From the NCBI RefSeq assembly GCF_005405305.1, contig NZ_BJDU01000002.1:124001-188000 (forward strand): a stretch of DNA of 64,000 nucleotides, in the 5' to 3' direction. Below, piece by piece: positions 1 through 14,379 of this stretch. The notes beneath the pieces were generated by a model, which saw only the letters and a list, made by a program, of their open reading frames with translations, was not told the origin of the DNA and did not search any database. The translations under genes and the position numbers were made by a program. Numbering within the stretch: position 1 is the stretch's first letter; the number at the start of each line of letters is the position of its first letter. Origin of the DNA: Companilactobacillus formosensis (lineage in GTDB: Bacteria; Bacillota; Bacilli; Lactobacillales; Lactobacillaceae).

Positions 1-512
1 TGAATGTCGTTGGTGGCGAAACTCACAGATGGGATTTGCAAGACAACAACAATATTGTGACTGTTCCAGAAGAACCAGGCGAACCAGATGAAAACAATGA
101 AGGTAAAGAATTAGTAGACCCTGGCTTTACAATTGATCCAACGCCAACAAATCCAGAACCAACTCCAAATCCTGACGAAAATGTAGATGGAAAGGATGAC
201 GAAGATGATGATCAAGAAATCATTATCAACGGTGGTTCAGAAGGCGATTTAGATGGTAGTGGTAATTTAGATTTAACTGGTAAAGAAGTTAATGTTCAAA
301 ACCCTGGTAGTAGTGAAGAAAAAACATTGTCTTCAATAAATGAGGGTAGTGGATTGGTTCCATTGACTAATGCTGCACAATCAACTGATACAAGTTCAGC
401 AAGTGGATTAAGTAGATTGCCACAAGCTGGTGCTACTAGTGGTATTTTGATGACAGTTGCTGGTGTAATTATGTTGGAATTAGGCATTGTGTTTAAGAAA
501 GTAAAATCGTAA
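1..512 (+). CDS. C-terminal part of a sortase-anchored CnaB-type surface protein (5' end outside window)
   Basis: The reading frame is open from base 3, so the gene begins upstream. The first visible residues (NVVGGETHRWDLQD) resemble the end of a Cna protein B-type repeat. An acidic, proline-rich wall-spanning linker follows (repeated PTPTNPEPTPNPDE style, then a D/E run), and then a Ser/Thr-rich stretch. The C-terminus is a sorting signal: an LPQAG pentapeptide, a hydrophobic helix and a basic KKVKS tail. It would be exported, cut by sortase and attached to peptidoglycan. The pentapeptide has Ala where Thr is usual. The TTG at 36 is only an internal codon. A hairpin terminator follows directly. 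Confidence 0.85.
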   Translation, partial: NVVGGETHRWDLQDNNNIVTVPEEPGEPDENNEGKELVDPGFTIDPTPTNPEPTPNPDENVDGKDDEDDDQEIIINGGSEGDLDGSGNLDLTGKEVNVQNPGSSEEKTLSSINEGSGLVPLTNAAQSTDTSSASGLSRLPQAGATSGILMTVAGVIMLELGIVFKKVKS

Positions 513-530
513 TTATATGGTTGTATTCAA

Positions 531-580
531 AAAAAAGTTTGAGAATTATTTTCTAATTGAAAATTTTCTTAGGCTTTTTT
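531..580 (+). terminator. Rho-independent terminator after the surface protein gene
   Basis: An A-rich left arm (AAAAAAGTTTGAGAA) can pair with TTCTTAGGCTTTTTT, using several G-U pairs, and the right arm ends in a T run. It lies 18 bases after the stop codon. Confidence 0.65.
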
Positions 581-603
581 ATTAGATTTCAATTAATTAA
601 ATG

Positions 604-632
604 TTGAAATTATTAAAATGAAGTGCTAGGAT
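604..632 (+). promoter_or_regulatory. Promoter for the small hydrophobic peptide ORF
   Basis: TTGAAA at 604-609 and TAGGAT at 627-632 are separated by 17 bases. A full AAGGAGG ribosome binding site follows at about 648-654. Confidence 0.5.
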
Positions 633-664
633 ATTCACAATAAATAAAGGAGGTTGTCGATGCT

Positions 665-724
665 ATGGATAAAGTTATTGTTGTAAACAGTACATTGGCA
701 ATCTTGGCCGTCATTTTGATTTGA
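665..724 (+). CDS. Small hydrophobic peptide (19 aa), possible type I toxin-like ORF
   Basis: ATG at 665 opens a 19-residue peptide, MDKVIVVNSTLAILAVILI, almost entirely one hydrophobic helix. It is preceded by a consensus promoter and a perfect AAGGAGG site. An out-of-frame ATG at 660 would give only eight residues (MLWIKLLL). The ORF is followed at once by a terminator hairpin, an alternative hairpin and a third strong terminator. Short membrane peptides in front of stacked hairpins are typical of type I (holin-like or Fst-like) toxin loci in lactobacilli. No antisense promoter was found and the family was not recognised, so the toxin role is only a suggestion. Confidence 0.35.
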   Translation: MDKVIVVNSTLAILAVILI

Positions 725-761
725 AAAAGGACTTAGACTATAAAATGTCAAGCCCTTTTTT
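724..761 (+). terminator. Terminator behind the small peptide ORF
   Basis: AAAAAGGACTT (724-734) pairs with AAGCCCTTTTTT (750-761) with one mismatch. The right arm TCAAGCCC (748-755) can alternatively pair with GGGCTTGA (774-781), giving mutually exclusive hairpins. Confidence 0.6.
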
Positions 762-783
762 CCGTTCGAATGAGGGCTTGAGA

Positions 784-820
784 AATAGGTCTCATCCGAA
801 AGGATGAGACCTATTTTTTT
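784..820 (+). terminator. Strong perfect-stem terminator
   Basis: A 14-bp perfect stem (AATAGGTCTCATCC / GGATGAGACCTATT) with a GAAA loop is followed by a T run. The stem could also terminate transcription arriving from the right. Confidence 0.85.
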
Positions 821-948
821 GTTATTATTTTTAGTGTATTTGAAATTAGAAAAAATTTAATTTTAAATGGGCTCTATTTGAACTCGGTCTATATTATGAG
901 TGCTAAACTACTGGCACGTAAGGAATTTGGGCATTTTTGAAATAAGCA

Positions 949-977
949 TTGACATTAAAAAAATCTAATAATATAAT
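949..977 (+). promoter_or_regulatory. Promoter of the frl-like operon
   Basis: A consensus TTGACA (949-954) and TATAAT (972-977) are separated by exactly 17 bases. The predicted start point near 984 lies just upstream of the palindromic operator. Confidence 0.85.
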
Positions 978-988
978 TCAGTTCATAA

Positions 989-1008
989 ATAACGTTATAT
1001 AACGTTAT
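989..1008 (+). promoter_or_regulatory. 20-bp perfect palindrome, predicted GntR operator O1
   Basis: ATAACGTTATATAACGTTAT is a perfect 20-bp palindrome lying just downstream of the predicted transcription start. A near-identical copy (18 of 20 bases) lies at 4829-4848 in the same operon. The operon encodes a GntR/UTRA repressor at 3270-4001, which is the obvious binding protein. The pairing of regulator and site is inferred from position and repetition. Confidence 0.7.
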
Positions 1009-1029
1009 AAATTAAGAAGGGGTGATTTT

Positions 1030-1836
1030 ATGAGAAAAAGATTTATCTATTTAATGATGCTGGTTTTTTCGTTAACTTTGATCTTAGTAGGATGCGGAAA
1101 TAAAAGTAATAATGCGTCCTCATTGGATAAGATTCTAAACAAAGGAGTTCTCACAGTAGGCATGATTAACTCTAATCCACCATATGAATATCAAGTCAAT
1201 AAAGATAGCAAGCAGAGTATGAAGGGTTCAGACGTAAAACTGATTAAAAAAATTGCTTCTAAACTTGGAGTTAAATATAAGATAAAAACTATGGATTTGG
1301 ATGGGCTATTGCCAGCTTTACAATCCGGAAAAGTTGATATGTTGGTCACTTCTTTAAGCCCAACTCCGGAGAGAAAAAAGGGTGCAACCTTTTCCAAAGT
1401 CTACTTTAGAAGTACAAATACTTTAGTTATAAGAAAAGAAGATAAGTCAAAATATTATAACGATATTGATCAGCTTGATAATAAAAAGATTGCAGTGGTA
1501 AATAATTCTACTCAACAACCTATGATTGAAAAGAGTTTCCCAAATGTATCATTAACGAAACTATCTAAAGTCACTGATTTAGCACTGGCTTTAAATAATA
1601 ATAAAGTAGATGCTTTTTCAATCGATGTACCAACGGCTACAATTTTGCTTCGACAAAATCCTGATTTAATGATGACAAAGTGGCGTCATAAGGATTCCAG
1701 CCTTGGAGCCGCTGTGGCAATGCCAAAAGATACTTCCAAGGATTTAGTAAATAAAGTTAATAAAATTGTAAAATCTAACAAAACTAATTATGAAAAATGG
1801 GTTCAAGATTCTGCGGAGCAAGTTCCAACTGATTAA
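1030..1836 (+). CDS. ABC transporter substrate-binding lipoprotein, polar amino-acid type (probable fructosamine uptake)
   Basis: 268 aa. The N-terminus has basic residues, a hydrophobic segment and the lipobox LVGC, so the mature protein should be lipidated at Cys-22. The body is a family 3 solute-binding fold (SBP_bac_3): LDKILNKGVLTVGM at the mature N-terminus, then DVKLIKKIASKLGVKYKI and a GLLPALQSGKVDML motif. It would deliver ligand to the permease and ATPase encoded directly downstream. Family members usually bind amino acids or amino-acid derivatives. Because the operon continues with FrlD-like and FrlB-like enzymes, the likely ligand is a glycated amino acid such as fructose-lysine. 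This specificity is inference. Confidence 0.85.
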   Translation: MRKRFIYLMMLVFSLTLILVGCGNKSNNASSLDKILNKGVLTVGMINSNPPYEYQVNKDSKQSMKGSDVKLIKKIASKLGVKYKIKTMDLDGLLPALQSGKVDMLVTSLSPTPERKKGATFSKVYFRSTNTLVIRKEDKSKYYNDIDQLDNKKIAVVNNSTQQPMIEKSFPNVSLTKLSKVTDLALALNNNKVDAFSIDVPTATILLRQNPDLMMTKWRHKDSSLGAAVAMPKDTSKDLVNKVNKIVKSNKTNYEKWVQDSAEQVPTD

Positions 1837-1856
1837 AGATTAATGAGGTGACAAAG

Positions 1857-2519
1857 ATGGGTGATTATTCGTTTCTTACCAATTATTGGCAATTATTTAT
1901 TAAAGGAGTAGTGGTAACCGTCGAACTAGCGATTATTTCGATAATTATGGGTTTGATATTAGGAATAATTTTAGCCGTGATGAAACGTTCAAGTATTTTT
2001 ATTGTTTCTTTATTGGCTAAAGCGTATATCGGATTTATTAGAGATACACCATTATTGATTCAAATATATATTGTTTATATTGGACTACCAATAATTACAG
2101 GGCTTCAGATTCCAGACTTTGCTACTGGCGTTGTATGTTTGACACTATATTCTGCTGCGTATATTGCAGAAATCATTAGATCAGGTATTGAATCTTTGCC
2201 CATTGGACAATCAGAGGCAGCTTTAAGTCTGGGAATGTCAAAATGGCAAGTAATGAAAGACATTATTTTACCTCAAGCAATTAAGAACATTTTGCCAGCT
2301 TTGGGAAATCAATTTATTGGTAATGTTAAAGATTCTTCATTGGTTTCAGTTTTAGGTATTGCGGATTTAATGTTTCAAGCACAAACAGTAAGAGGGTCAA
2401 CTGCTTTAGGATTAGAACCAATGATTGTTGCTTCATTATTATATTTAATCTTAACCTGGAGTCTGAACAGACTTCTAGCAAATGTAGAAAAGAGGTTGAA
2501 GGTCAGTGATAGAACTTAA
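1857..2519 (+). CDS. ABC transporter permease, polar amino-acid (HisMQ/GlnP) type
   Basis: 220 aa from ATG 1857, which has GAGGTG six bases upstream; a GTG at 1848 is in frame but overlaps that site. Several membrane helices are visible. The EAA loop typical of importer permeases reads [35 protein letters not shown]. It is the membrane channel for the lipoprotein upstream. Its end overlaps the ATPase start by 14 bases, so the two are probably translationally coupled. Confidence 0.88.
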
Positions 2520-3240
2520 AAATTTAAATAAATCATATGGCAACAATAATGTTTTAAAACATATTAATTTAAAGATTGATGATGGCGAGGTTGTTGTAAT
2601 TATTGGACCATCCGGTTCCGGGAAAAGTACTTTATTACGCTGTATGAATCTACTAGAACAACCCACAAGTGGTGAAGTAAAGATTAATGGTCAAAAAGTT
2701 TCTGGTAAGGTTAAACCGGAATTAATCAGAGAAACTAGACAAAACGTGGGTATGGTCTTTCAACACTTCAATCTTTTCCCTCACTATACTGTCTTGAATA
2801 ATATTATTCATGCGCCAATGATTGTGAAGAAGCAGAATAAAGATGAGGCTATCAAACATGCCAAACAGCTACTAAAAGAAGTTTCATTGGAAAACAAGAT
2901 AAATGCTTTTCCATCTTCTCTTTCAGGAGGGCAAGAACAGCGAATCGCTATTGCACGTGCTTTGGCAATGAACCCTAATACTCTTTTATTTGATGAACCA
3001 ACTTCAGCACTTGATCCAGAGATGGTTGAAGAGGTTTTGGAGGTAATGAAAAAGCTCGCTAAAACTGGAATGACAATGGTTGTTGTAACTCATGAGATGG
3101 GATTTGCAAAACAAGTAGGAAGTAGAGTTGTTTTTGTTGATAATGGTCAGATTTTAGAAGACGATACTCCGGAAAAAATCTTTAATGCGCCTAACAATCC
3201 TAGAACTCAGGATTTTATTTCTAAAATTTTGTATACTTAA
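2506..3240 (+). CDS. ABC transporter ATP-binding protein, polar amino-acid (GlnQ) type
   Basis: 244 aa, GTG start overlapping the permease gene. Walker A is GPSGSGKST (about residues 34-42), the Q-loop is in [15 protein letters not shown], the signature is LSGGQEQR (Glu where Gln is common), Walker B is [14 protein letters not shown] and the switch His is in [10 protein letters not shown]. Length and the [13 protein letters not shown] motif place it with GlnQ/HisP-type import ATPases. It powers the importer encoded at 1030-2519. Confidence 0.9.
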
Positions 3241-3269
3241 TTAGAAATATTATTAAAGGATATCTTACG

Positions 3270-4001
3270 GTGAATATAATGATAAAAAAAGAAAGTGTTA
3301 TTCCGTTATATGAACAAATAAAAAATGAAATTATTAAACAGATTTCAGAAGGAACTTACGAGCCTGGTAGTAAACTTCCTTCAGAACATGAATTAGAGGA
3401 TGAATTTAATACTAGTAGAATTACTATTCGCAGAGCAATTGATGAGTTAGCTAAGGACAATTATTTAACTAAAAAACAAGGAAAAGGAACTTTTATTAAT
3501 GCACACAAAGTGCAAAGAAACTTATTAAATTTGAATAGTTATACTAATTTTATGTTAGAAAATAATTCAAAACCTTCTCGCAAAGTAATTGAAGTTAGCT
3601 ATGAAAATGCGACTCTTAAAGTAAGAAGTAACTTACGTACTAGTGAAGAGTCTAAAATTTTAAAAGTTCAGAGAATAATGCACTTTGAAAAAAACAATGA
3701 TGGACTTGAGATAGGATTTTATCCAACGGAGATGTTTCCTGATTTGGATAAAAAAATAACTAGTGATGTTTCAATCAGTAATTTGTTAAAGGATACATAT
3801 CATATTAGTCAAGGTCGCAGTCATCAACAAATAAGCCTTACATTTGCAACTAGTGATATGGCGAAAAAATTAAATGTGGTTTTAGGGTCTCCATTATTTC
3901 AACTAGAAAGAACAGTATATGATATTGAAAATCAACCAATCTATTTTGCTGTTATGTATTATGACCCTAATAAGGTAAGTTTTATAGTTGATTCAAAATA
4001 G
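3270..4001 (+). CDS. GntR-family regulator with UTRA domain (FrlR-like)
   Basis: 243 aa, GTG start nine bases after AAAGGA. The N-terminal winged helix-turn-helix (about residues 5-75) has PLYEQIKNEIIKQISEGTYEPGSKLPSEHEL and the recognition helix region TSRITIRRAIDELAKDNYLTKKQGKGTFI. The remainder is a UTRA effector domain of the HutC subfamily (LKVQRIM, GFYPTEMFPDL, LERTVYDIENQPIYFAVMYY). Such proteins usually repress and release DNA when a sugar-phosphate-type ligand binds. Two matching operators at 989-1008 and 4829-4848 flank the operon it sits in, suggesting autoregulation. By analogy with Bacillus FrlR the inducer may be a 6-phosphorylated fructosamine. Confidence 0.88.
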   Translation: MNIMIKKESVIPLYEQIKNEIIKQISEGTYEPGSKLPSEHELEDEFNTSRITIRRAIDELAKDNYLTKKQGKGTFINAHKVQRNLLNLNSYTNFMLENNSKPSRKVIEVSYENATLKVRSNLRTSEESKILKVQRIMHFEKNNDGLEIGFYPTEMFPDLDKKITSDVSISNLLKDTYHISQGRSHQQISLTFATSDMAKKLNVVLGSPLFQLERTVYDIENQPIYFAVMYYDPNKVSFIVDSK

Positions 4002-4017
4002 GGGAGGGATGTACTTA

Positions 4018-4842
4018 ATGAAAGTTATTGGTATTGGAGACAATGTTGTCGATATGTATTTAGATCAAGGAAAAATGTATCTCGGAGGAAATGCATTAAA
4101 TTTTTCAAATTTTGCACGAGAATTAGGAGTAAAATCTTCTTTTATTGGTAACTTTGGTACTGATGAAATCGCCAAATATGCAAAAAGAGCATTAAATAAA
4201 TTGAATATAGACATCTCACATAGCCATACGTTAGACGGAGAAAATGGGCGATCAAGGGTGACGTTGAGAAAACATGATAGGGTTTTCATTGATAGCAATA
4301 AAGGTGGGGTATTGAGACAAGGTCTGAACATGACCCCACAGGATATTGATTATGTCAACCAATTTGATATTGTTCATTTCAATATTAACGGTAATGCTGA
4401 TCAATATTTGACGAATATTAAAGGACCGACCCTCATTTATGATTTTTCCGATTTATATGAAATCAATGATATTAAGAGAATTGCTAAATATATAGATATT
4501 GCTTGTTTTTCGGTTGGCTCAATGTCTGATCAAAATATTACTAAGATGGTCAAAAAAATTAATTCTTTTGGTATTACGGATATTTTAATCACGCGTGGAT
4601 CATATGGCGCATACTTTTTTCATAACTCTAAAAGATATATTCAAAAGTCTGTAAAGGTCACTGTAGTAGATACGATGGGAGCTGGTGATGCATTCATCAC
4701 GAGTTTTGTAATAAAGTATAAGGAAACAAGTAGTATTGAAGAATCGTTAAAATTTGCTGCTGAATACGCATCTCAACAAGTACAAAGACATGGTTCCTTT
4801 AATAATCCAGAAAAAATTCCAAGTAAGTATAACGTTATATAA
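4018..4842 (+). CDS. frlD: PfkB-family kinase, fructoselysine 6-kinase-like (FrlD)
   Basis: 274 aa from ATG 4018, nine bases after GGGGAGGG; an upstream TTG in the ORF lies inside the gntR gene. It has the ribokinase/PfkB fold: N-terminal KVIGIGDNVVDMYLDQ, the substrate motif GGNALNFSNFARELG, and the C-terminal anion hole with catalytic Asp in DTMGAGDAFITS. The start and spacing match FrlD proteins, which phosphorylate fructose-lysine or related Amadori products at C6. It lies between the FrlR-like regulator and a FrlB-like deglycase, which supports that role. The exact amino acid on the substrate cannot be told. Confidence 0.8.
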   Translation: MKVIGIGDNVVDMYLDQGKMYLGGNALNFSNFARELGVKSSFIGNFGTDEIAKYAKRALNKLNIDISHSHTLDGENGRSRVTLRKHDRVFIDSNKGGVLRQGLNMTPQDIDYVNQFDIVHFNINGNADQYLTNIKGPTLIYDFSDLYEINDIKRIAKYIDIACFSVGSMSDQNITKMVKKINSFGITDILITRGSYGAYFFHNSKRYIQKSVKVTVVDTMGAGDAFITSFVIKYKETSSIEESLKFAAEYASQQVQRHGSFNNPEKIPSKYNVI

Positions 4843-4848
4843 CATAAT
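4829..4848 (+). promoter_or_regulatory. Predicted GntR operator O2, before frlB
   Basis: ATAACGTTATATAACATAAT matches operator O1 (989-1008) at 18 of 20 positions, overlaps the stop of the kinase gene and ends 22 bases before the deglycase ATG. It may control an internal promoter or act as an auxiliary repressor site. Confidence 0.6.
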
Positions 4849-4870
4849 ATAAAATGGAGGCAAATTAATT

Positions 4871-5863
4871 ATGATTAAATACACAACACAAAATGATTTA
4901 AAGGAAATTGTTACCGATATCTTAAGAAAGCAATCTAATCTAAAGAGTGTCTTCTTTATTGGATGTGGGGCTTCTTTATCAGAATTGTACGGAGCGGCAT
5001 ATTTCTTAAGACAAAATGCTCTTAAGCTCCATGTTGAATGGATTCAAGCAAATGAGTTCAATTATTCACATCCTAAACTGGCTGATAAGACTGCTGTAGT
5101 TATCGTTGCTTCACTTAGTGGAGAGACCAAAGAATCAGTTCATGCTGTTAAAAACGCAAAATCCTTAGGGTGTCATACTATTGCCTTAACACATGTACCA
5201 GAATCAAACCTTACCAAAAATGCTGATTATACAGTAGTTCATTCTTTCTTTGAAGACTACGCATCAAAAGCTGCTAAACAGAAAGATGCCTTGGGACTTG
5301 CTGTTGAACTCTTACAACAGGTAGAGGGCTTTGATTTATACAAGGAAATGAAACAAGGTGTCGATGTAGTTGATAATATTATTAATTTTGCAGCGGATAG
5401 TGTAAAAAAAGAAGCCATTGAATTTGGAACAAAATATAAAGATGAATCCACGATATATACATTAGCAAGCGGAGCAAATTATGGAGTTGGATATTCTACA
5501 GCTAACTTTATTTTTATGGAAATGCAATGGATTTCTAGTCCGATTTTAGACAGTGGGGAGTACTTCCACGGACCATTCGAATTAACAGTAAAAGATGCAC
5601 CATATCTGTTATTCATGTCTGATGGTAAAACTCGTCATTTGGATGCCAGGGCACTAGAATTTTTTCAAAAATACAATGCTAAATATACCGTGATTGATGC
5701 TAAGGATTTCTGGTTAGATAGTAAAATGAGTTCGGAAGTAGTCGATTATTTTGATCCGTTGGTATTAACAGGGGTTATGAGAGTTTATGCAGAAGAGCTT
5801 TCTAGAGCAAGAAAGCATCCACTTAGTAAAAGAAGGTATATGTGGAAATTAGAGAATTACTAA
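4871..5863 (+). CDS. frlB: SIS-domain fructosamine-6-phosphate deglycase-like protein (FrlB)
   Basis: 330 aa, ATG ten bases after GGAGG. Two SIS domains are visible: the first has FFIGCGASLSELYGAAYFL and VASLSGETKESVHAVKNAK, the second TLASGANYGVGYSTANFI. The active-site-like LDSGEYFHGPFEL corresponds to the ELKHGP region of GlmS-type isomerases. Length agrees with FrlB (about 330 aa). The reaction would split a 6-phosphofructosamine into glucose 6-phosphate and a free amino acid, completing the pathway begun by the kinase upstream. A perfect terminator closes the operon just after the stop. Confidence 0.82.
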   Translation: MIKYTTQNDLKEIVTDILRKQSNLKSVFFIGCGASLSELYGAAYFLRQNALKLHVEWIQANEFNYSHPKLADKTAVVIVASLSGETKESVHAVKNAKSLGCHTIALTHVPESNLTKNADYTVVHSFFEDYASKAAKQKDALGLAVELLQQVEGFDLYKEMKQGVDVVDNIINFAADSVKKEAIEFGTKYKDESTIYTLASGANYGVGYSTANFIFMEMQWISSPILDSGEYFHGPFELTVKDAPYLLFMSDGKTRHLDARALEFFQKYNAKYTVIDAKDFWLDSKMSSEVVDYFDPLVLTGVMRVYAEELSRARKHPLSKRRYMWKLENY

Positions 5864-5912
5864 AAAAGTTCATTGACCTATTTTCTCAATATAATAAGTC
5901 AATGAACTTTTT
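5863..5912 (+). terminator. Terminator of the frl-like operon (bidirectional)
   Basis: A perfect 15-bp stem (AAAAAGTTCATTGAC / GTCAATGAACTTTTT) has A and T tracts on either side, so it can also end transcription of the reverse-strand gene at 5916-6857. Confidence 0.9.
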
Positions 5913-5915
5913 ATA

Positions 5916-6857
5916 TTACTTTTCTGTAGAATGACGCTCTCCCAATAGAAAATCATCTTTATTTTCAAACATATGTTTAATAGTGATTGGATTATGTCCA
6001 GTTAGTTTACTAAAGTCACTAACAGGAACATCTAAGTATCCTTCTCTAACAGTGGTACCGAATGTTACCATTCCTTCAGAAGTTGCTTGAATAGGACTCT
6101 TTGAAAAGTCGCCATTAGTATCACGGGGGACACCGATACTATCAAAATAATCGTATAATTCCTGATCAGTTTTTCTAACGTATTTAATATTGTTGCCAGT
6201 AGTTTCATTACCAATCTTTAAAAATTTATCATAAGTAAATGGCTCAATACCGTTAATATTTAAAATAGCACGGTGTAATAAATCGTTATTTAAAGCACAA
6301 GCAGCGCTTAAAGCAGCGTCTCGTCTTGATATAAACCAAACTTTACCATTGCCCATGTTCTTTTCGATACTGTCTTCATTACTATTGACGGCACGCATAT
6401 AATCTGATATGAATGCTTCAGCAAACAAAGAGTTACGTAAGAAAATGTAGTCCAAATCTGTATTTTGAATAATAGATTCAGTATAACCATGATCTGCATT
6501 TTCTACGCTTGGATTAAAGGGATTGCCAGCAGATAGTACCGAAGTATAAATTACTTGATCAACGTGTGCTTTGACACAGGCGTCAACAAAATTTTTATGT
6601 GCTTGGCGACGTTTTTTACCAACAAAAGGCATTGAAATTAATAATACTTTATCAGCATTTTTATAAGCCGATACTAAAGTATCAGGATTATTAAAATCAG
6701 CCACAGCAGTTTTGATTCCTTGATCAGAATACTTCTTTAATTTGTCCTTTCGGGGAGCTGTAAATACTAAATATTCTTTTGGAATCAATTTTTGTACGTA
6801 ATTTGCTACTAGTGAACCAAAATTTCCGTCTATTCCATTTACTACTATTTTTTTCAT
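5916..6857 (-). CDS. NmrA-like NAD(P)-binding atypical SDR protein
   Basis: 313 aa from the ATG at 6857 with GGAGG six bases upstream (an upstream in-frame ATG at 6884 lacks a site). The N-terminus is a Rossmann fold with the dinucleotide loop GIDGNFGSLVA. The following TAPRKDKLKKY and GIKTAVADFNNPDTLVSAYKNADKVLLISMP match NmrA/azoreductase-like atypical short-chain dehydrogenases, which lack the usual Tyr-Lys catalytic pair. The C-terminus (TYDKFLKIGNETTGN) fits the family. Substrate unknown; members act as quinone/NADPH reductases or redox sensors. It stands alone, convergent with the frl-like operon. Confidence 0.75.
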   Translation of the reverse strand: MKKIVVNGIDGNFGSLVANYVQKLIPKEYLVFTAPRKDKLKKYSDQGIKTAVADFNNPDTLVSAYKNADKVLLISMPFVGKKRRQAHKNFVDACVKAHVDQVIYTSVLSAGNPFNPSVENADHGYTESIIQNTDLDYIFLRNSLFAEAFISDYMRAVNSNEDSIEKNMGNGKVWFISRRDAALSAACALNNDLLHRAILNINGIEPFTYDKFLKIGNETTGNNIKYVRKTDQELYDYFDSIGVPRDTNGDFSKSPIQATSEGMVTFGTTVREGYLDVPVSDFSKLTGHNPITIKHMFENKDDFLLGERHSTEK

Positions 6858-6953
6858 AAAAGCCTCCATTAAAATAATGTACACGATTTCATAGTAAGAA
6901 AAGAAGTCTTTTTATGTCAAGATGATTATTTAATTTTTAAATAGTTTTAAGAA

Positions 6954-7020: not shown

Positions 7021-9777
7021 TTATCGATTATATTTTCTTCTAACAATAAGTTTTCTCAATTCTTCAATCAAAAAGATTGGAATCGGAATGATCACTAGAA
7101 AAACCCAGTCATTTACTTGTAAGGGAGCTGTATTGAAGACTTCTTGAATTCCGGGTGTATAGACAAGAATTGCTAATAGGATTACTTCGAAAACAATTCC
7201 GGCCCAAACACGATGATTATTGAAGATTCCTAATTTAAAGACAGAAGTATATTTGGTTTGACAATTTAATGCTGCCGCGATTTGACAGAAGATGATGGCG
7301 GCTAAAGTCATTGTAGTTGCACGATTATAGACGATTCCTGAACTCATAAGATTCTTCATTGGCCAGCCATTTTGGTAATTGACGAAAAAGTAAGCGATAG
7401 TAGAAACCAATGAGGCAATGGCACCATACCAAGCAAAAGCGGTCAAAATCAAATGTTTATTAAGCAAGTGTGAGTTATGGGCTCTTGGTTTTTGATTCAT
7501 AATGCCGGGTTCTGGTTGTTCAGATCCTAATCCTAGAGCTGGTAACATATCAGTACCCAAATCAACCGCTAAAATTTGTAAAACGGTCAATGGCAAAGGA
7601 ATTAGTCCACGACTGAGTAAGAAGAGTGCTGAAGGAACAGCTTCAGGGACATTTGAATTGAAAATGTACAACAAGAATTTTTGAATATTACTGTAAACGG
7701 TACGTCCTTCTTCAATGGCAGCAACGATTGAAGCAAAATTATCATCGGTCAAAATCATATTGGCAGCATCTTTTGCGACGTCAGTTCCAGTAACACCCAT
7801 TGCGACTCCAATATTAGCCTTCTTCAAAGCAGGAGCATCGTTGACACCATCACCAGTTGAAGCAACAATTTGACCCATATTTTGCAAAGTAGAAACGATT
7901 TTATACTTTTGTTCAGGAGCAACTCTGGCAAAAATTACTTCACCTTGTAATGCTTGTTTTAAATCTTTTGAATTCATTTGATCTAGTTCTGTTCCTGTAA
8001 CAACACGAGCTTTGTCGCTAGTAATACCAATTTTTTCGGCAACGGATTTGGCAGTAATTTCACTGTCGCCAGTTACCATGATGATTTTAATGCTAGCATT
8101 GTGGCATTTTTTGACGGCATCATAAATTTCTGGACGGGGTGGGTCAGCCATTACTGTTAAACCGAGAAAGATCAAGTCGTTTTCCGTATTGGTATCGTTT
8201 AGATTATCAATTTGTTTTTCATCCTTATAATCAATTGTTTTATAAGTAATAGCTAACGAGCGCAATCCTTTTATAGCGTAATTTTTATTAGCTTGATTGA
8301 TTTTCTTAATATCATTGGCAGTAATTGATCTGATTTCACCATTGACTTGAATTTTGGTGCATTGTTGCAATAGTCCATCGAGTGAACCTTTTACAGCAAC
8401 GAATAATTTATTTTTTGTTTGGTGAATAGTCGTCATTCTTTTACGATCAGAGTCGAAGGGCAATTCCTTTACTCTAGGCATTTGCTTTAATTCTTTAGTT
8501 GCATCAAATCCAGTTTTTTGAGCCATGATGACTAAAGCTGCTTCAGTTGGAGTTCCAAGGATTTTTGGCTTTTTTTCAGAGGATAATTCAACCGTTGTAT
8601 CGTTGTTGAAAGTAGCAACTCTTAATAATTGGATCAGAGCAGGATCATCGTGATAATTTATGACTTTATTTCCTTGTTTGAGATGACCATTATTTATGTA
8701 TCCTTGTCCGGTAACAGTGTAAACATTACCCATGAGCCAGATGTGATTAACGGTCATTTGATTTTGAGTCAAAGTACCAGTTTTATCCGAACAAATAACG
8801 CTAGTTTCACCCAGAGTTTCGACACTATTCAAATCTTTTACTAGAGCATGCTTTTTAGCCATCCTTTGTACTGCTTGTGCTAAAGACAAAGTTACAGTTG
8901 GCAACAAGCCCTCAGGAATAAAGGCTACTATCATGCCCAGTGCAAACACAAATGATTGAGCAATGGGATGGTGAACAAAAAGTATTGCAGCAACGAAGAA
9001 AACTAGGCCAACGGCAATCGCAATCAATGAAATTTGTTTAGTTAGACGATTTAACTCTTGTTGTAAAGGACTAGTAGTTGTATTTTGCTTTTGAGTTAAT
9101 GAAGCAATTTTACCAAATTCGGTATTCATACCAGTTGCTAAAACCACTGCTTTGCCATCTCCAGAACCAACTGTCGTTCCGGCATAAACGATATTAGATT
9201 CTGAAAATTTTCCTTCGCCAATTTTAAATTTAACAGTTTTAGATTCGGGAACAGTTTCACCGGTCAGGGCAGATTGGTCGACCTGAATCGAGGTTGCCTC
9301 AAGTAATCTAGCATCAGCAGGAACTGAATTACCAGCCTGTAATTGGAATACGTCGCCAGGAACAATTTCTTTAGAATCTAGCTGCTCAATTTTGCCGTTA
9401 CGAAAAACTCTGGTATAAGTAGGCAGCATTGCCATTAAGGAGTCAGTAGCTTTTTGAGCTTTATGTTCTTGCCAAAAACTAAAGAGACCATTAATGATGT
9501 TGACTAGCCAAATGGCAATTCCTAACTCAATAGATCCAGTCAAAATAGCAATTAGTCCGCTGATCCAAAGTAACATCGCCATAAGACTAGCAAAGTTTTT
9601 GAGAAAAGCCTTTAGTTGTGATTTTTGTTGGTTTCTGTGAATCGTATTAGGACCATACTTATTTTTCCGATTATTTGCTTCTATCTGACTAAGTCCAGTT
9701 TTAGAAGTTTTTAAGTCTTGTAATAATTTATCCAAAGGTTCATTTGCATATGATGATTGTAATTGATTTTTCTTCAT
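7021..9777 (-). CDS. P2-type cation-transporting ATPase (PEGLL, Na+/K+-ATPase-like subtype)
   Basis: 918 aa. In order: N-terminal cation ATPase domain (LDKLLQDLKTSKTGLSQIEA), first membrane pair, actuator domain with DQSALTGETVPESK, the M4 motif PEGLLPTV, phosphorylation site ICSDKTGTLTQNQMTV, nucleotide-binding domain, the hinge VTGDSEITAKSVA and TGDGVNDAPALKKAN, then C-terminal membrane helices. It pumps cations using a phospho-Asp intermediate. PEGLL and the DLNSVETLGETS context resemble P2C (Na+/K+-ATPase-like) pumps more than PEGLP Ca2+ pumps, so the ion is open. Start is ATG 9777 after a GGTGA site. Confidence 0.88.
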   Translation of the reverse strand: MKKNQLQSSYANEPLDKLLQDLKTSKTGLSQIEANNRKNKYGPNTIHRNQQKSQLKAFLKNFASLMAMLLWISGLIAILTGSIELGIAIWLVNIINGLFSFWQEHKAQKATDSLMAMLPTYTRVFRNGKIEQLDSKEIVPGDVFQLQAGNSVPADARLLEATSIQVDQSALTGETVPESKTVKFKIGEGKFSESNIVYAGTTVGSGDGKAVVLATGMNTEFGKIASLTQKQNTTTSPLQQELNRLTKQISLIAIAVGLVFFVAAILFVHHPIAQSFVFALGMIVAFIPEGLLPTVTLSLAQAVQRMAKKHALVKDLNSVETLGETSVICSDKTGTLTQNQMTVNHIWLMGNVYTVTGQGYINNGHLKQGNKVINYHDDPALIQLLRVATFNNDTTVELSSEKKPKILGTPTEAALVIMAQKTGFDATKELKQMPRVKELPFDSDRKRMTTIHQTKNKLFVAVKGSLDGLLQQCTKIQVNGEIRSITANDIKKINQANKNYAIKGLRSLAITYKTIDYKDEKQIDNLNDTNTENDLIFLGLTVMADPPRPEIYDAVKKCHNASIKIIMVTGDSEITAKSVAEKIGITSDKARVVTGTELDQMNSKDLKQALQGEVIFARVAPEQKYKIVSTLQNMGQIVASTGDGVNDAPALKKANIGVAMGVTGTDVAKDAANMILTDDNFASIVAAIEEGRTVYSNIQKFLLYIFNSNVPEAVPSALFLLSRGLIPLPLTVLQILAVDLGTDMLPALGLGSEQPEPGIMNQKPRAHNSHLLNKHLILTAFAWYGAIASLVSTIAYFFVNYQNGWPMKNLMSSGIVYNRATTMTLAAIIFCQIAAALNCQTKYTSVFKLGIFNNHRVWAGIVFEVILLAILVYTPGIQEVFNTAPLQVNDWVFLVIIPIPIFLIEELRKLIVRRKYNR

Positions 9778-10069
9778 TTTTTCACCAGCTTTTTACAATT
9801 AATGAAAAATATAAATTATTCGTTTAATTTTCAAACTTTTCAACAATTCAATTATAGGTCTGTTAAAAAGGAATAGTTGGTAAACAATATGGAAAAATCA
9901 AAAAAACCAATTATTATAATCTAATAATGAATTATTACGATAAATATACAAAATGTATTAAAAAATAAGTAAATTCTTAAATCTAAATATAAATTAGGAA
10001 TTAAAAACTTGTCAGAAAAAATATCAAAGCTCATACTTAAATAAAGCATTTCATAAAGTGGAGGAATAA
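9778..10069. other. AT-rich intergenic spacer between divergent genes
   Basis: 292 bases with no ORF that looks coding. It must hold promoters for both the reverse-strand ATPase and the forward dehydrogenase. No strong -35/-10 pair or operator could be singled out in this very AT-rich sequence. Confidence 0.5.
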
Positions 10070-11038
10070 ATGATGTCAAAAGTATTTATTGCGGGAAAAA
10101 TTCCAAAGAAAGCAGTAGCTTTACTGAAAGCTGCTAACTTAACGGTTGATATGTATACTGATGATAAATTAATTAGTGCAGAAACCTTAAAAGAAAGCAT
10201 AATTGACAGTGATTTCCTAATTACGCCACTTTCAACGCAAGTTAATCGTGACATACTAGATCATGCACCTAAACTGAAATTAATTGCGAATTTTGGTGCA
10301 GGGACTAATAATATTGATACCAATTATGCCAAAAAGTTTGGAATACCAGTGACAAATACACCAATCGTATCAACTGTTTCAACGGCAGAATCGACAGTCG
10401 GACTAATTATCGGATTGATGCATCGAATTGCCGAAGGTGATCATTTGATGAGAACAACTGGTTTTAATGGTTGGGCACCGTTGTTTTTCCTAGGACATGA
10501 ATTGCAAGGTAAAACTTTGGGAATTATTGGTTTAGGTCAAATCGGGCAAGCTGTTGCTAAAAGAATGCACGCTTTCGATATGCCGATTCTCTATACGCAA
10601 CGTCATCGTTTACCAATTAGTCGTGAAGTGGAACTTGGCGCAAAATTTGTTTCTCAAACTGAACTTCTTGCTAATTCTGATGTTGTAACTTTACATTTGC
10701 CTTTAAATGAACACACGAAACATTTATTGGGCGCAGCTGAATTTAAACAAATGAAATCGACTGCAGTTCTGATCAATGCTGCTCGTGGACCAATTATTGA
10801 TGAATCAGCTTTGACTGAAGCTTTAAAACAGCACATTATTGCTGGAGCAGCTTTAGACGTTTACGAACATGAACCTGAAGTGTCAAAAGAATTAAAGCAA
10901 ATGAAAAATGTTTTACTGACGCCTCATTTAGGAAATGCTACTATTGAAGCTCGTGATGCGATGGCAGTAATTGTTGCAGAAAATGTAATAGCTGCAGCTA
11001 ACGACCAACCAATTAAATATATTGTTAACGATATATAA
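10070..11038 (+). CDS. D-isomer-specific 2-hydroxyacid dehydrogenase
   Basis: 322 aa; ATGs at 10070 and 10073 both sit behind GTGGAGG. The catalytic domain is split around a Rossmann NAD-binding domain with GKTLGIIGLGQIGQAVAKRM. Catalytic residues are recognisable: Arg in INAARGPIIDE, Glu in DVYEHEPEV, and His in LLTPHLGNATIEARDAM. It would reversibly reduce a 2-keto acid (glyoxylate/hydroxypyruvate reductase-like or D-lactate-like) with NAD(P)H. Sequence style is closest to GyaR-type reductases; substrate cannot be assigned. A small membrane protein gene follows at 22 bases and may be cotranscribed. Confidence 0.87.
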   Translation: MMSKVFIAGKIPKKAVALLKAANLTVDMYTDDKLISAETLKESIIDSDFLITPLSTQVNRDILDHAPKLKLIANFGAGTNNIDTNYAKKFGIPVTNTPIVSTVSTAESTVGLIIGLMHRIAEGDHLMRTTGFNGWAPLFFLGHELQGKTLGIIGLGQIGQAVAKRMHAFDMPILYTQRHRLPISREVELGAKFVSQTELLANSDVVTLHLPLNEHTKHLLGAAEFKQMKSTAVLINAARGPIIDESALTEALKQHIIAGAALDVYEHEPEVSKELKQMKNVLLTPHLGNATIEARDAMAVIVAENVIAAANDQPIKYIVNDI

Positions 11039-11060
11039 TATTAATATCAAGGAGAGAAAA

Positions 11061-11366
11061 ATGTTTGCCAATTTAGTTAATGAAGAAAGAAAAGCCTATA
11101 AGACTGTAAAGGTTGGTTATTCTTGGACAGAGATGCTTTTTGGCTTTTGGACACCAGTGTTTCGTGGCGATTTCAAGTGGGCCAGTGTCGTAGTTTTGGC
11201 AGAAATAATTTTTGGATCATTCACTTGGGGTGGTGGAGCCTTTTTAGTAACTTTTGTATTTGCCTTCTTTTATAACCGCCTTTACGTCAATGACATGATT
11301 AAGCAAGGTTTTAAACCAGCTGATCAGAATTCTTTTAATGTTTTGAAAAGTTATAATTATATTTAG
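11061..11366 (+). CDS. Small membrane protein, DUF2628-like
   Basis: 101 aa from ATG 11061, preceded by AGGAGAG; the frame is open further upstream but has no site. The soluble N-terminus contains KAYKTVKVGYSWTEMLFGFWTPVFRGDFKW, which is the pattern of DUF2628 proteins. Two hydrophobic segments (VVVLAEIIFGSF and AFLVTFVFAFFYN) and a C-terminal YVNDMIKQGFKPAD follow. Function unknown. It lies close behind the dehydrogenase and before another small membrane ORF. Confidence 0.7.
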   Translation: MFANLVNEERKAYKTVKVGYSWTEMLFGFWTPVFRGDFKWASVVVLAEIIFGSFTWGGGAFLVTFVFAFFYNRLYVNDMIKQGFKPADQNSFNVLKSYNYI

Positions 11367-11387
11367 AAATGAGGGAGAGATATTTTT

Positions 11388-11567
11388 ATGAAGAAAAAAG
11401 TGGTTCAGATAACTTTATTTTTCTTCATTTCGTGCTTAGTGATAATATCGATTCCAATTGCATTTCATTTTGGGATGCAGTATTTGATAATTACAATTTT
11501 GTTGATTTTATTAGGTCGACACATCATACAAAAGCAAAAAAATAAGAGGAATTTATCCAATTTTTAA
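11388..11567 (+). CDS. Small two-helix membrane protein (59 aa), unrecognised
   Basis: ATG 11388 has GAGGGAGA nine bases upstream and starts a 59-residue protein: a basic MKKKVV start, a hydrophobic helix (ITLFFFISCLVIISIPIAF), a short HFGMQ turn, a second helix (YLIITILLILL) and a basic tail. It follows the DUF2628-like gene by 21 bases, so the two are probably one transcript. The terminator stem overlaps its last codons. No function is recognised. Confidence 0.6.
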   Translation: MKKKVVQITLFFFISCLVIISIPIAFHFGMQYLIITILLILLGRHIIQKQKNKRNLSNF

Positions 11568-11591
11568 AAAGGGTAAGTTGCTCTTATTTTT
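11538..11591 (+). terminator. Bidirectional terminator overlapping the end of the small membrane ORF
   Basis: AAAAATAAGAG pairs with CTCTTATTTTT, with additional inner pairing (AATTTATCC / GGGTAAGTT with mismatches). It serves the forward gene and the reverse-strand GNAT remnant. Confidence 0.7.
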
Positions 11592-11916
11592 ACTTATTCC
11601 ACCATTTAATATAGTTAATTTCTTTTTTTCTGATTTCATAACCATGTTTTTTATAAAATTTATGACCCGAATCTCGTTCAAATCCAGAAACCAATCTGAT
11701 TCCTATACTACCATCTTCTTTGGCCCACTTTTCGGCATGTTCAATCAATTTTGAACCAACGCCTTCATCTTGGTGATTTCCATCAACTGCAAGGGTGATA
11801 ATGTTCTTAAGGCTTTCATGATATGTGTTCTCGTAATCACTCATTTGAATGTAGCCGAGTACTTCAGTATTAGAAACAGCCACAAATATTTTTGAATTGG
11901 GTAAGGATAAATTTTT
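11590..11916 (-). pseudogene. Truncated GNAT acetyltransferase, N-terminus missing
   Basis: About 108 codons remain. The acetyl-CoA-binding core is visible: IFVAVSNTEVLGYI, then ITLAVDGNHQDEGVGSKLIEHAEKWA, where the GVGSKL loop binds pyrophosphate, and GFERDSGHKFYKKHGYE. Reading upstream in frame, SLPNSK continues the fold but a TAA stop is met at 11917-11919, exactly at the edge of an insertion relic. A normal GNAT needs 30-50 more N-terminal residues, and none could be found beyond the relic. A GTG at 11883 could start a shortened product, but there is no good ribosome binding site. Confidence 0.75.
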
Positions 11917-11920
11917 TTAG

Positions 11921-12183
11921 TACCGCTAAATAAGCTACTCGTAAATATAGAAAAAATTTTGTATGCTGTACTTGTCAGCTGTATTCTTGATATTTGGACT
12001 GGCATAATTGTCTTGTGTTGGCCCTTTTTGTGTTCTTGACAGTTCTTTCTACTTTTAATCAAGAAATAAATTATTTTTAGAATCTTATAGGCCCTTGCTA
12101 TTAAAGCCTTCTGAGCACACAATCAAGATTTTAATCTCCAAAAATAATCTTTAAGAACTGCTTCCTTAGTTATTTTAGCGGTA
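11921..12183 (-). mobile_element. 263-bp MITE-like insertion relic with terminal inverted repeats
   Basis: The ends carry inverted repeats TACCGCTAAATAAG (11921-11934) and TTATTTTAGCGGTA (12170-12183). They are flanked by near-identical 8-bp repeats TTTTTTAG and TTTTTTAA, as expected for a target duplication. On the reverse strand the inside reads DYFWRLKS, a stop, then QKALIARAYKILKIIYFLIKS, which resembles the C-terminus of a transposase, possibly the IS110/Transposase_20 type. I read it as an internally deleted, non-autonomous element. The family assignment is weak because IS110 elements usually lack such repeats. Confidence 0.55.
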
Positions 12184-12206
12184 TTTTTTAATATGTTGAA
12201 TAAAGC

Positions 12207-12224
12207 CACACTTTTACGTGTGGA
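12207..12224. repeat. Short hairpin
   Basis: CCACAC and GTGTGG form a small stem with a 6-base loop and no T run. Function not evident. The surrounding 12191-12404 contains no convincing gene. Confidence 0.35.
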
Positions 12225-12404
12225 AGTGAAAATAGCTTTAGCATTAAAAACCCTTTCGCTATAATTATTTATTTTCGAGGACTTATGTCACAATCCCGTA
12301 TCGAAGTCAACAAGAGAAAAAAAGATTAGTATACGAATGCACCTAATAATATTTAATAATTAGATCTGAATTGGATGAAAATGTATTAAAAAAAGAAGTG
12401 ATAA

Positions 12405-12433
12405 TTGAGAATGTACGTCAATGAGCGTACAAT
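12405..12433 (+). promoter_or_regulatory. Promoter of the toxin-antitoxin operon with embedded operator palindrome
   Basis: TTGAGA (12405-12410) and TACAAT (12428-12433) are 17 bases apart. The spacer and -10 contain an inverted repeat, TGTACG (12412-12417) and CGTACA (12426-12431). An operator lying over the promoter is what RelB/DinJ antitoxins use for autorepression. Confidence 0.75.
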
Positions 12434-12450
12434 AGCTGTGAGGTGATATT

Positions 12451-12732
12451 ATGACAAAGGCAATATCTAATGCAAGAATCGAAGCTCGTATTGATCCTAA
12501 AATCAAATCAAAAGCACAAGATGAATTATCAAAACATGGAATGACTATTTCTGAATATGTTAGAGCAACAATAACAACAGTTGCTACTCAAGGCTTACCA
12601 AAGGATTTTGGAGTGCCTAACGCAGAAGTAATGTGCTCGTTATACGAAGTCGCAGACGATCAAAATGGCAAAGCAAAGATGAAAGGCTTTACTAGTGTCG
12701 AATCGTTAATGGATGATCTGGACAATGACTAA
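12451..12732 (+). CDS. RelB/DinJ-family antitoxin
   Basis: 93 aa, ATG with GAGGTGAT upstream. The N-terminus is a ribbon-helix-helix DNA-binding domain: ARIEARIDPKIKSKAQDEL followed by GMTISEYVRATITTVA. The acidic C-terminus (ESLMDDLDND) would wrap and neutralise the toxin. It overlaps the toxin gene by 8 bases. A palindrome in the promoter is the likely autoregulatory site. Confidence 0.87.
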   Translation: MTKAISNARIEARIDPKIKSKAQDELSKHGMTISEYVRATITTVATQGLPKDFGVPNAEVMCSLYEVADDQNGKAKMKGFTSVESLMDDLDND

Positions 12733-13090
12733 AGAGATCAAAAGAACAACAAAATTTAAAAAACAATATAAGAAAATACGCCATAATCCAAAATGGAAAT
12801 TGATATTTTCTAAAGGAACTATGGCCGATCCAGAACGTTCTCCTTTTGAGTATATAGTTGGTTGTTTACTAAATGAAATACAAATTCCAAAGTATTATTA
12901 TGCTCATCCAATCAACTTGTCGAAAGACCAAATGAAATCACTAAAAAGCAGAGCAGATGTGCCGGAAAAAAGTATCAAGGTCCTAGAATTGCACTTTGAC
13001 GGTCACAATGGCGATCACTTGCTAGTCTACTGTGATTTAAAAGAGGTTGTGTACCTAGTTGCTATTGGTACTCATAGTGACTTATTTTAG
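12725..13090 (+). CDS. RelE/YafQ-type toxin, mRNA interferase
   Basis: 121 aa from ATG 12725, overlapping the antitoxin end; an in-frame ATG at 12713 is less likely. The basic N-terminus (KEIKRTTKFKKQYKKIRHNPKW) matches RelE/YafQ toxins, and the C-terminal LELHFDGHNGDHLLVYCDLKEVVYLVAIGTHSDLF carries the conserved His/Asp and final beta-strand motif. It would cut mRNA in the ribosome unless bound by the antitoxin. About 30 aa longer than minimal YafQ, with an insertion around PFEYIVGCLLNEIQIPKYYYAHP. Confidence 0.82.
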   Translation: MTKEIKRTTKFKKQYKKIRHNPKWKLIFSKGTMADPERSPFEYIVGCLLNEIQIPKYYYAHPINLSKDQMKSLKSRADVPEKSIKVLELHFDGHNGDHLLVYCDLKEVVYLVAIGTHSDLF

Positions 13091-13200
13091 TTTGTAACAT
13101 TACAAACGTGCAAAAAGAATAAGCAAGAGAGGATAGAGGAGCAATCGTTCGACTTACCACCTTCATTAAACTATATGATTTAATAAAAATGTGGTTCTCA

Positions 13201-13245
13201 AAAAACATCCCTATTAAAAATTGATATTTTCTAATAGAGATGTTT
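13201..13245 (+). terminator. Hairpin terminator after the toxin-antitoxin pair
   Basis: AACATCCCTATTA pairs with TAATAGAGATGTT with one mismatch. A short T tract follows. Confidence 0.5.
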
Positions 13246-13263
13246 CATGTTAATATGTGGAAT

Positions 13264-13307
13264 AAAAGCTGACAAATGAAATCTTATATTTCATTCGTCA
13301 GCTTTTT
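13264..13307 (+). terminator. Strong hairpin terminator
   Basis: AAAAGCTGACAAATGAAAT pairs with ATTTCATTCGTCAGCTTTT with one mismatch, followed by T residues. Confidence 0.8.
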
Positions 13308-13404
13308 CTGTATTATAAAACATGATAAGTTAGTTATTTAATAGTGAGTTCCATATTGTTATAAAAAAATAAAGTACATATAGAAATATAGGAAATCCAA
13401 TATT

Positions 13405-13515
13405 ATGGACAATGAGATTTTTTCTGCAGCTCTTGATGAATTAAATATTCTGACTGAGACTGGAGAAACAATAGGGTATAAGTTTGGTAAAAATTGTAAC
13501 GCCGTTATAGTTTAA
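13405..13515 (+). CDS. Doubtful 36-aa ORF
   Basis: ATG 13405 to TAA 13513-13515 encodes an acidic, soluble peptide beginning MDNEIFSAALDELNIL. The upstream AGGAAA is a weak ribosome binding site. It could be a fragment of a decayed gene; no family is recognised. Confidence 0.25.
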   Translation: MDNEIFSAALDELNILTETGETIGYKFGKNCNAVIV

Positions 13516-13595
13516 CTAATTCAATTCATGTAAAATACATTTGATACTTATTTTTGAGGACATAAATTAATATTGATGTTGAGGAGATGAGAATA

Positions 13596-14171: not shown

Positions 14172-14247
14172 ATTCAAAAAAAATAATAACTAGTTCTTAT
14201 TCAAGTTTTTGGTCAGAGTAGACGAAATATATACTTTAGTTAAATCA

Positions 14248-14294
14248 AAGAGCATCAATCAGCAATCCTAAATAATTTACTGATTGATGCTCTT
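14248..14294. terminator. Bidirectional terminator
   Basis: A perfect stem AAGAGCATCAATCAG / CTGATTGATGCTCTT lies between the forward XRE gene and the reverse M20 peptidase gene. Confidence 0.7.
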
Positions 14295-14379
14295 AATTTT
14301 GATTTATCTACTAATTTTTAAAGTAAATTTCATATTGTTTTTTTTTACTTATTCTAATTATTTTACTTATCATTAAAAT

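Follow-up and report, generated by a model that had tools for sequence, protein, structure and literature searches.

A predicted fructosamine operon built on a polar amino-acid-type ABC importer in Companilactobacillus formosensis and other lactobacilli

In the frlABCDR operon of Escherichia coli, a FrlB-type deglycase, a FrlD-type kinase and a GntR regulator are encoded together with FrlA, a secondary permease of the amino-acid/polyamine type, and there is no ATP-binding cassette (ABC) importer. The Bacillus subtilis frlBONMD-frlP genes specify a deglycase, a kinase, the repressor FrlR and an ABC importer with its binding protein; this importer includes two permeases and draws its energy from either FrlP or the sugar ATPase MsmX (PMC12632257). 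Salmonella takes up such substrates by a phosphotransferase system (PTS), and systems of this kind have been reported from Enterococcus faecium (PMC12675984), while Intestinimonas AF211 has an ABC transporter, a fructoselysine kinase and a deglycase in one cluster (PMC4697335). Here we describe six genes in a 64,000-nucleotide stretch of Companilactobacillus formosensis DNA (contig NZ_BJDU01000002.1, positions 124,001 to 188,000; hereafter the window), in which a FrlD-like kinase and a predicted deglycase of fructosamines (Amadori products, which arise early in the Maillard reaction) are encoded with a polar amino-acid-type ABC importer. Judged from sequence comparison, this is probably a substrate-inducible fructosamine operon that combines amino-acid-type import with a kinase and a deglycase, and that came about by a switch from PTS to ABC uptake.

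The locus resembles each of the described systems in part and differs from it in other respects. Compared with B. subtilis frl, it has a single permease, its own GlnQ-type ATPase and another gene order. The gfr-type mannose PTS loci (Salmonella gfrABCDEF, Enterococcus, Pediococcus) have deglycases of the same wider clade, but uptake is by a PTS, none of the 22 loci with close deglycases has a kinase, and the annotated PTS records (loci L105-L107) carry a LevR or sigma-54-type regulator, unlike the GntR/UTRA protein found here. The likeness to Intestinimonas AF211 is one of gene content. SIS and kinase genes also lie next to an ABC set that includes two permeases on a plasmid of Rhizobium rhizogenes, and close to a YfcC-type gene in a Klebsiella record. 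An earlier note on this DNA had described the Bacillus frl importer as one of the sugar type and enterococcal uptake as PTS-dependent; the first point agrees with the use of FrlP or MsmX (PMC12632257), and the second with the two enterococcal plasmid loci that we opened, both of PTS type. The operon is described in no title or abstract among the open-licence PMC matches listed, and a search of the open-licence PMC literature for Companilactobacillus with Amadori products found nothing. Neither the components nor the principle is without precedent, and what seems new is their combination, in lactobacilli, in a stable six-gene cassette with an amino-acid importer.

All six genes lie on the forward strand at 1030-5863 of the window, in nearly contiguous open reading frames (ORFs), and, as the earlier note had it, they stand between a consensus promoter and a terminator:

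949..977, + strand: sigma-70 promoter, TTGACA-17-TATAAT, 12 of 12 consensus positions
989..1008, + strand: palindrome ATAACGTTATATAACGTTAT, putative operator of the GntR/UTRA protein, directly downstream of the -10 box
1030..1836, + strand: solute-binding lipoprotein (Pfam SBP_bac_3), with Cys22 at the lipobox, Arg115 and Asp199
1848..2519, + strand: polar amino-acid ABC permease, a single gene (TIGR01726 HEQRo_perm_3TM, 90.9 bits against a cut-off of 42.2)
2506..3240, + strand: GlnQ-type ATPase (PRK09493 GlnQ, 328.4 bits, under the equivalog cut-off of 379)
3279..4001, + strand: GntR/UTRA regulator (Pfam GntR and UTRA)
4018..4842, + strand: FrlD-like PfkB kinase with the motif DTMGAGDAF (best NCBIfam match PRK09813, fructoselysine 6-kinase)
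4831..4848, + strand: second palindrome-like site AACGTTATATAACATAAT, across the kinase stop codon and ahead of the deglycase gene
4871..5863, + strand: predicted SIS-domain fructosamine-6-phosphate deglycase of the GfrF/FraB/FrlB group, with Glu217 and His233
5863..5912, no strand assigned: intrinsic terminator lying between two convergent genes; its 15-pair stem folds with a z score of -7.66

The Pfam matches are SBP_bac_3 1.1e-28, BPD_transp_1 1.1e-25 and ABC_tran 2.3e-39 for the importer, GntR 1.3e-20 and UTRA 1.1e-21 for the regulator, PfkB 2.5e-32 for the kinase and SIS 6.6e-20 for the deglycase. The ATPase start overlaps the permease by 14 bp, and the permease more likely begins at the ATG at 1857. 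The promoter is the sole one with a score of 12/12 among 37 promoter-like sites in the 8 kb scanned; since shuffled sequences gave 36.1 sites, the number of sites is uninformative and the perfect score alone counts. The promoter block is almost the same in loci L050 and L051. At the other end, the stem arms (5863-5877 and 5898-5912) fold with -19 kcal/mol compared to -3.98 in shuffles, and because the next gene is convergent, this terminator may serve both the operon and the downstream gene. A pattern scan missed it, the probable reason being a loop too long for that scan, and an Rfam search of window positions 500-6000 at a loose limit returned sub-threshold matches only.

The importer genes accompany the deglycase gene wherever we found them. 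In 397 genomes of the family, orthologues of the lipoprotein (at 1e-50, a limit of our own choosing) occur in 10 and SIS matches (at 1e-20, some of them distant) in 40, among which are all 10 orthologue genomes; the hypergeometric probability of this nesting is 3.5e-11, with the genomes taken as independent though they are related. The two genes are 1.2-3.1 kb apart, in a single locus, in each of the 10 genomes, and the three plasmid records with an orthologue likewise have the deglycase gene in the same locus. Since the orthologue always shares a locus with an SIS gene, we consider the importer part of the pathway. The orthologue set is well set off: the weakest of the ten scores 3.2e-82, compared to 1.9e-36 for the best other solute-binding protein (SBP) in the 21 genomes searched at 1e-8. 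A kinase gene is present in the same locus in 9 of the 10 genomes, the exception being genome G098. A tblastn search of plasmids with the ATPase at 1e-90 gave no match, at a limit that was too strict, as the orthologue on the Latilactobacillus curvatus plasmid stands at 65%.

The gene order recurs as well. We compared 17 ABC loci (the window, L050, L051, L033-L042, L049, L100, L101 and L102, with L061 counted apart), and the six-gene order, for which the earlier note had suggested searching elsewhere, is retained in 15 of them, while all 17 have both kinase and deglycase. This agreement places the gene set beyond chance, although several of the loci are close relatives (L034/L035, L039-L042, L101/L102) and thus do not represent 17 independent cases. 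The loci come from Companilactobacillus, Apilactobacillus, Paucilactobacillus, Lentilactobacillus, Secundilactobacillus, Limosilactobacillus and Lacticaseibacillus, plus two uncultured Lactobacillus sp. The order is also kept on the L. curvatus plasmid (L100), which is typed as conjugative and has an IS30-type transposase gene directly upstream. On the Liquorilactobacillus nagelii plasmid (L101), the regulator lies upstream and is interrupted by an IS3-type element, and the L. hordei plasmid (L102) is arranged similarly as far as the stretch extends. Several genes are fragmented in Lacticaseibacillus pantheris (L049), the lipoprotein gene is in two pieces in L040, and the permease match is partial in L037. 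An SBP tree of 44 rows groups the 15 SBPs of these loci, counting those of L061 and L101, in a single clade (100/100); the SBPs of L066 and L067 fall outside it, as do 27 rows of paralogues, 25 of them distinct. Based on co-occurrence, the SBP clade and conserved gene order, we rejected the idea that the ABC genes are chance neighbours. The proposal of a polar amino-acid-class importer is therefore borne out, and the importer is a fixed part of a frl-type pathway (10/10 orthologue genomes, 17/17 ABC loci).

A PTS phosphorylates its substrate during import, whereas an ABC importer does not; we would therefore expect a kinase in ABC loci and none in PTS loci. We built a deglycase tree of 49 sequences, of which 12 are ABC-linked (from the 17 loci), 26 are PTS-linked (including L061, which has both) and 11 are others. 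The PTS labels were checked with annotated enterococcal and pediococcal PTS proteins, and IIB, IIC and IID are present in 29 of 30 PTS loci; L109 has IIB only, and its contig ends after the SIS gene. The 12 ABC-linked deglycases form one clade (96/88), which sits within a 31-member clade (100/98) whose 19 other members are all PTS-linked. A kinase match is found in 17/17 ABC loci and in 0/22 PTS loci whose deglycases are close to that of the window (41-57% identity); the sole kinase-like match in one of these, L058, covers 91 residues at 25%. Two (L117 and L118) of the eight PTS loci with distant deglycases (25-39%) have a full-length PfkB match. Thus, kinase absence tracks the PTS near the ABC clade, with exceptions further off. 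The simpler reading of the tree is a change from PTS to ABC importer, a direction that depends on the root, and by its position the deglycase would belong with the mannose-type PTS loci of the fructoselysine kind. No PTS enzyme II (EIIABCD) genes are found among the six genes or in the flanking genes at 3-512, 5916-6884 and 7021-9777 of the window.

Several loci of PTS type deserve description in their own right. L117 (4995-9023) and L118 (6417-10869) each combine genes of a mannose-type PTS with those for a PfkB kinase and a distant SIS protein. In L061 (4268-12014), a mannose-type PTS deglycase locus is followed by a GntR gene and the importer, with no kinase within the 15-kb stretch. Deglycase matches on plasmids at 1e-60 come mainly from Enterococcus (151 of 172 records, e.g. 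NZ_CP116518.1), and in both records that were opened the deglycase gene lies within a mannose-type PTS locus.

By sequence, the SIS protein and the kinase fall in the broad group of fructosamine enzymes. The best PDB matches of the SIS protein are 3fkj (5.4e-70, 239.3 bits), 9otj (1.8e-69, 237.6 bits) and 3eua (1.1e-60, 208.7 bits), the last annotated as a putative fructose-amino-acid-6-phosphate deglycase; variant chains of 9otj are also among the best matches. Glu217 and His233 are invariant in 14 sequences and align with a Glu and a His of 9otj, which we take to be FraB; they are presumably the equivalents of its catalytic pair E214/H230. In the variant chain 9otu, an Ala replaces the Glu aligned to Glu217, as if the substitution had been made to abolish activity. 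A conserved general acid and base are common to FraB and FrlB (PMC9609667), and by alignment the SIS protein is predicted to possess both. Its nearest named relative among the matches listed is from Companilactobacillus halodurans (77%). In the kinase, DTMGAGDAF is invariant across 11 aligned sequences save one A/S position. Together with the presence of kinase and deglycase in all 17 ABC loci, the active-site mapping supports the frl-type pathway that the earlier note had proposed.

The combination of an SBP_bac_3 lipoprotein, a HEQRo-type permease and a GlnQ-type ATPase is that of a polar amino-acid ABC importer (PAAT). It is not a sugar importer of the Bacillus type, as there is one permease and all best matches are to the amino-acid class. 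An AlphaFold model of the lipoprotein (mean predicted local distance difference test score 86.2) matches amino-acid binding proteins, with a loose fit to the solved chains (template modelling score 0.49-0.70 by query length in the 50 rows shown), and the nearest solved structures bind arginine and other amino acids. Cys22, Arg115 and Asp199 are invariant in both orthologue alignments (13 and 15 sequences). With the roles of Arg115 and Asp199 and the ligand-contact positions presumed to be as in glutamine-binding protein, the two conserved residues fit recognition of the amino-acid half of a substrate; Arg115 is common among paralogues too and thus carries little information on the ligand. There are changes nearby, at positions 108 and 159, where the five solved chains shown have Gly and the lipoprotein itself has Ser108 and Asn159. 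Position 108 is Ser in the clade (Ala in L061 and L101), compared to Gly, Asn, Asp or Thr in the paralogues examined; at position 159 the clade has Asn or Ser, and the paralogues vary.

By their PDB molecule name, 5l9o and 5lom are also family-3 binding proteins for a deoxyfructosyl amino acid, and we take them to be Agrobacterium SocA and related Amadori/opine binding proteins. Descent of the lipoprotein from SocA was considered and rejected: 5l9o ranks just 40th among its PDB matches, and because that match is 2.3e-11 compared to 1.1e-41 for the best chain, 4ymx, recruitment of the binding protein looks independent of the 5l9o lineage. The claim of the earlier note that the amino-acid half is recognised, giving a distinct uptake logic, thus stands in part: Arg115 and Asp199 fit the recognition, but 5l9o and E. 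coli FrlA are precedents for the logic.

We propose that the lipoprotein would capture a whole glycated amino acid outside the cell by holding on to the amino-acid head, with Arg115 holding the carboxylate and Asp199 the amino group, as family knowledge suggests. It would then pass the conjugate to the polar-amino-acid permease, presumably a homodimer given its single gene, driven by the GlnQ-type ATPase. As the fructosamine would arrive unphosphorylated, the PfkB kinase would phosphorylate it at C6, and the SIS enzyme would cleave the phosphate to glucose 6-phosphate and the free amino acid. On this proposal, a deglycase that came from a PTS setting was paired with an amino-acid ABC importer, and the kinase came along because such an importer does not phosphorylate. 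Our guess for the substrate is epsilon-fructoselysine, favoured by its free alpha-amino-acid head, the PTS-type deglycase clade and the kinase model.

A number of observations weigh against this interpretation. Sequence comparison gave no fructosamine pocket signature in the lipoprotein. The kinase scores 168.5 bits against the cut-off of 247 of the fructoselysine 6-kinase model PRK09813, and the SIS protein 88.7 bits against the cut-off of 430 of the E. coli-type FrlB equivalog model; both are therefore members of the broad group and not of those equivalogs. Failure of the FrlB model says little, since it is passed by none of 14 control genomes, B. subtilis and E. coli included. For the SBP tree, the program cautioned that long branches come together where the clade splits from the rest. 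In G098, the importer orthologue is in a PTS deglycase locus (L061) without a kinase, the sole kinase match at 1e-25 (31%) being ~240 kb away, and there the importer may do something else. Finally, L117 and L118 combine a PTS with a PfkB kinase; their deglycases are distant (25-28% identical), and thus our interpretation is unchanged.

Three other explanations share much of this evidence. We regard it as unlikely, if worth serious attention, that the importer reads the amino-acid half loosely and accepts several glycated amino acids, of the alpha as well as the epsilon type. Polar amino-acid binding proteins can be broad, as is known for the family, and B. subtilis FrlD and FrlB prefer alpha-glycated amino acids (PMC12632257), but alpha-glycation would make the alpha-amine, the expected partner of Asp199, a secondary amine. 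Moreover, the deglycase falls among PTS-linked ones and scores higher with 3fkj and 9otj than with 3eua, which argues for fructoselysine rather than a range of substrates; the use of several fructosyl-amino acids from heated or fermented foods, as the earlier note had supposed, is speculation.

It is improbable that the substrate is another conjugate, such as a Heyns product (glucoselysine), fructose-asparagine, or another ketosamine or opine. Salmonella GfrE/GfrF and FraB are SIS deglycases for several conjugates (PMC12675984, PMC12051030), so that enzymes of this fold do serve such substrates. The six genes, against this, include no asparaginase and no second SIS protein, and the best model of the kinase, though under its cut-off, is fructoselysine 6-kinase. 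The near equality of the 9otj and 3fkj scores would favour such a conjugate if 9otj is, as we assume, FraB. Least probable is an importer of a free amino acid (such as lysine, arginine or glutamine) that is merely co-regulated, with fructosamines made inside or entering otherwise: the binding of arginine or other amino acids by the nearest solved structures and the retained Arg115 and Asp199 speak for it, but the six genes of the 15 ordered loci include no second transporter (flanks partly annotated), the orthologue shared the deglycase locus in every case found (10 genomes, 3 plasmid records), and position 108 sets the clade apart from solved chains and paralogues.

Returning to the proposed fructosamine operon, regulation by the GntR/UTRA protein is suggested by two related palindromes, at 989-1008 and 4831-4848, that were absent from the earlier note. 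An 18-base pattern has two exact matches in the whole 2.47-Mb genome, which are these two sites; a search of the window with three mismatches found one further site, at 11027, and at least three sites occurred in 2 of 100 shuffles. Of the 17 loci compared here (the window, L050, L051, L033-L042, L049, L061, L100 and L101), 15 have the 16-bp core AACGTTATATAACGTT ahead of the lipoprotein gene with 0-3 mismatches, and for no single locus did more than 3 of 300 first-order resamplings of that stretch match as well. It was not found within three mismatches at that place in L061 and L101, whose GntR genes are outside the usual place. In L039, L041 and L042, both outer palindrome bases are altered jointly and symmetry is preserved. 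The second site, ahead of the deglycase gene, is present (≤3 mismatches) in 6 of 16 loci: the window, L050, L051, L033, L100 and L049. A conserved palindrome at its own promoter in 15/17 loci is what we would expect of a GntR-type autoregulated operon, and 989-1008 is the probable operator of the GntR/UTRA protein. This protein would repress from the promoter palindrome until the substrate or its phosphate binds, and in some genera the second site might perhaps add repression ahead of the deglycase gene. A Salmonella fraB mutant is reported to be harmed by the unsplit phosphorylated conjugate.

Other importers occur beside related enzymes. In two genomes of one genus (L114, 7423-14902; L125, ~7299-14885), SIS and FrlD-like kinase genes are followed by an oligopeptide-type ABC importer, and the same arrangement is found in another genus (L119, 828-8160), where the kinase ORF overlaps an OppA-type ORF. 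These importers, on the same strand, consist of SBP_bac_5, an OppC-type permease and ATPases, and the SIS proteins are closest to 3eua; the arrangement may represent an operon for glycated peptides. Amino-acid ABC genes in L119 were rejected as a second fructosamine importer, since their SBP is of glutamate type (5eyf, 1.2e-84), ~230 bp from the SIS gene. In L066 (5962-9477), L067 (5752-9249) and L116 (1222-4722), a family-3 SBP gene with no adjacent permease gene comes first, followed by SIS, kinase and GntR genes. The SBPs from L066 and L067 (31-33%) were rejected as members of our group, as they fall outside the clade and have no equivalent of Asp199; that of L116 was left out of the tree.

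Upstream of the operon in the window, a short ORF at 665-724 follows AGGAGG, encodes a hydrophobic 19-residue product and precedes a hairpin-terminator; DNA at 640-830 had no match in 20 relatives. Positions 1-512 encode the C-terminal part of an acidic protein that carries LPQAG and a hydrophobic tail and is probably anchored at the surface; there was no Pfam match.

A wider account, to which we give somewhat less than even weight, is that in lactobacilli one deglycase lineage exchanged its PTS for a re-shaped polar amino-acid ABC importer and a kinase, that the cassette moves between genera, partly on conjugative plasmids, and that a peptide route runs in parallel, with a more distant pair of SIS and kinase genes set ahead of an oligopeptide importer in other lactobacilli, so that the handle for uptake may be the sugar, the amino acid or the peptide. 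Uptake has been called the less understood step of Amadori-product breakdown in B. subtilis (PMC12632257). If the proposal for C. formosensis is true, a dedicated importer, also plasmid-borne, would explain how such lactobacilli could use glycated lysine. The group would also offer two natural tests: one of how the pocket of a binding protein for a free amino acid comes to accept a sugar-amino-acid conjugate, the other of how an ABC importer with a kinase takes the place of a PTS in an operon.

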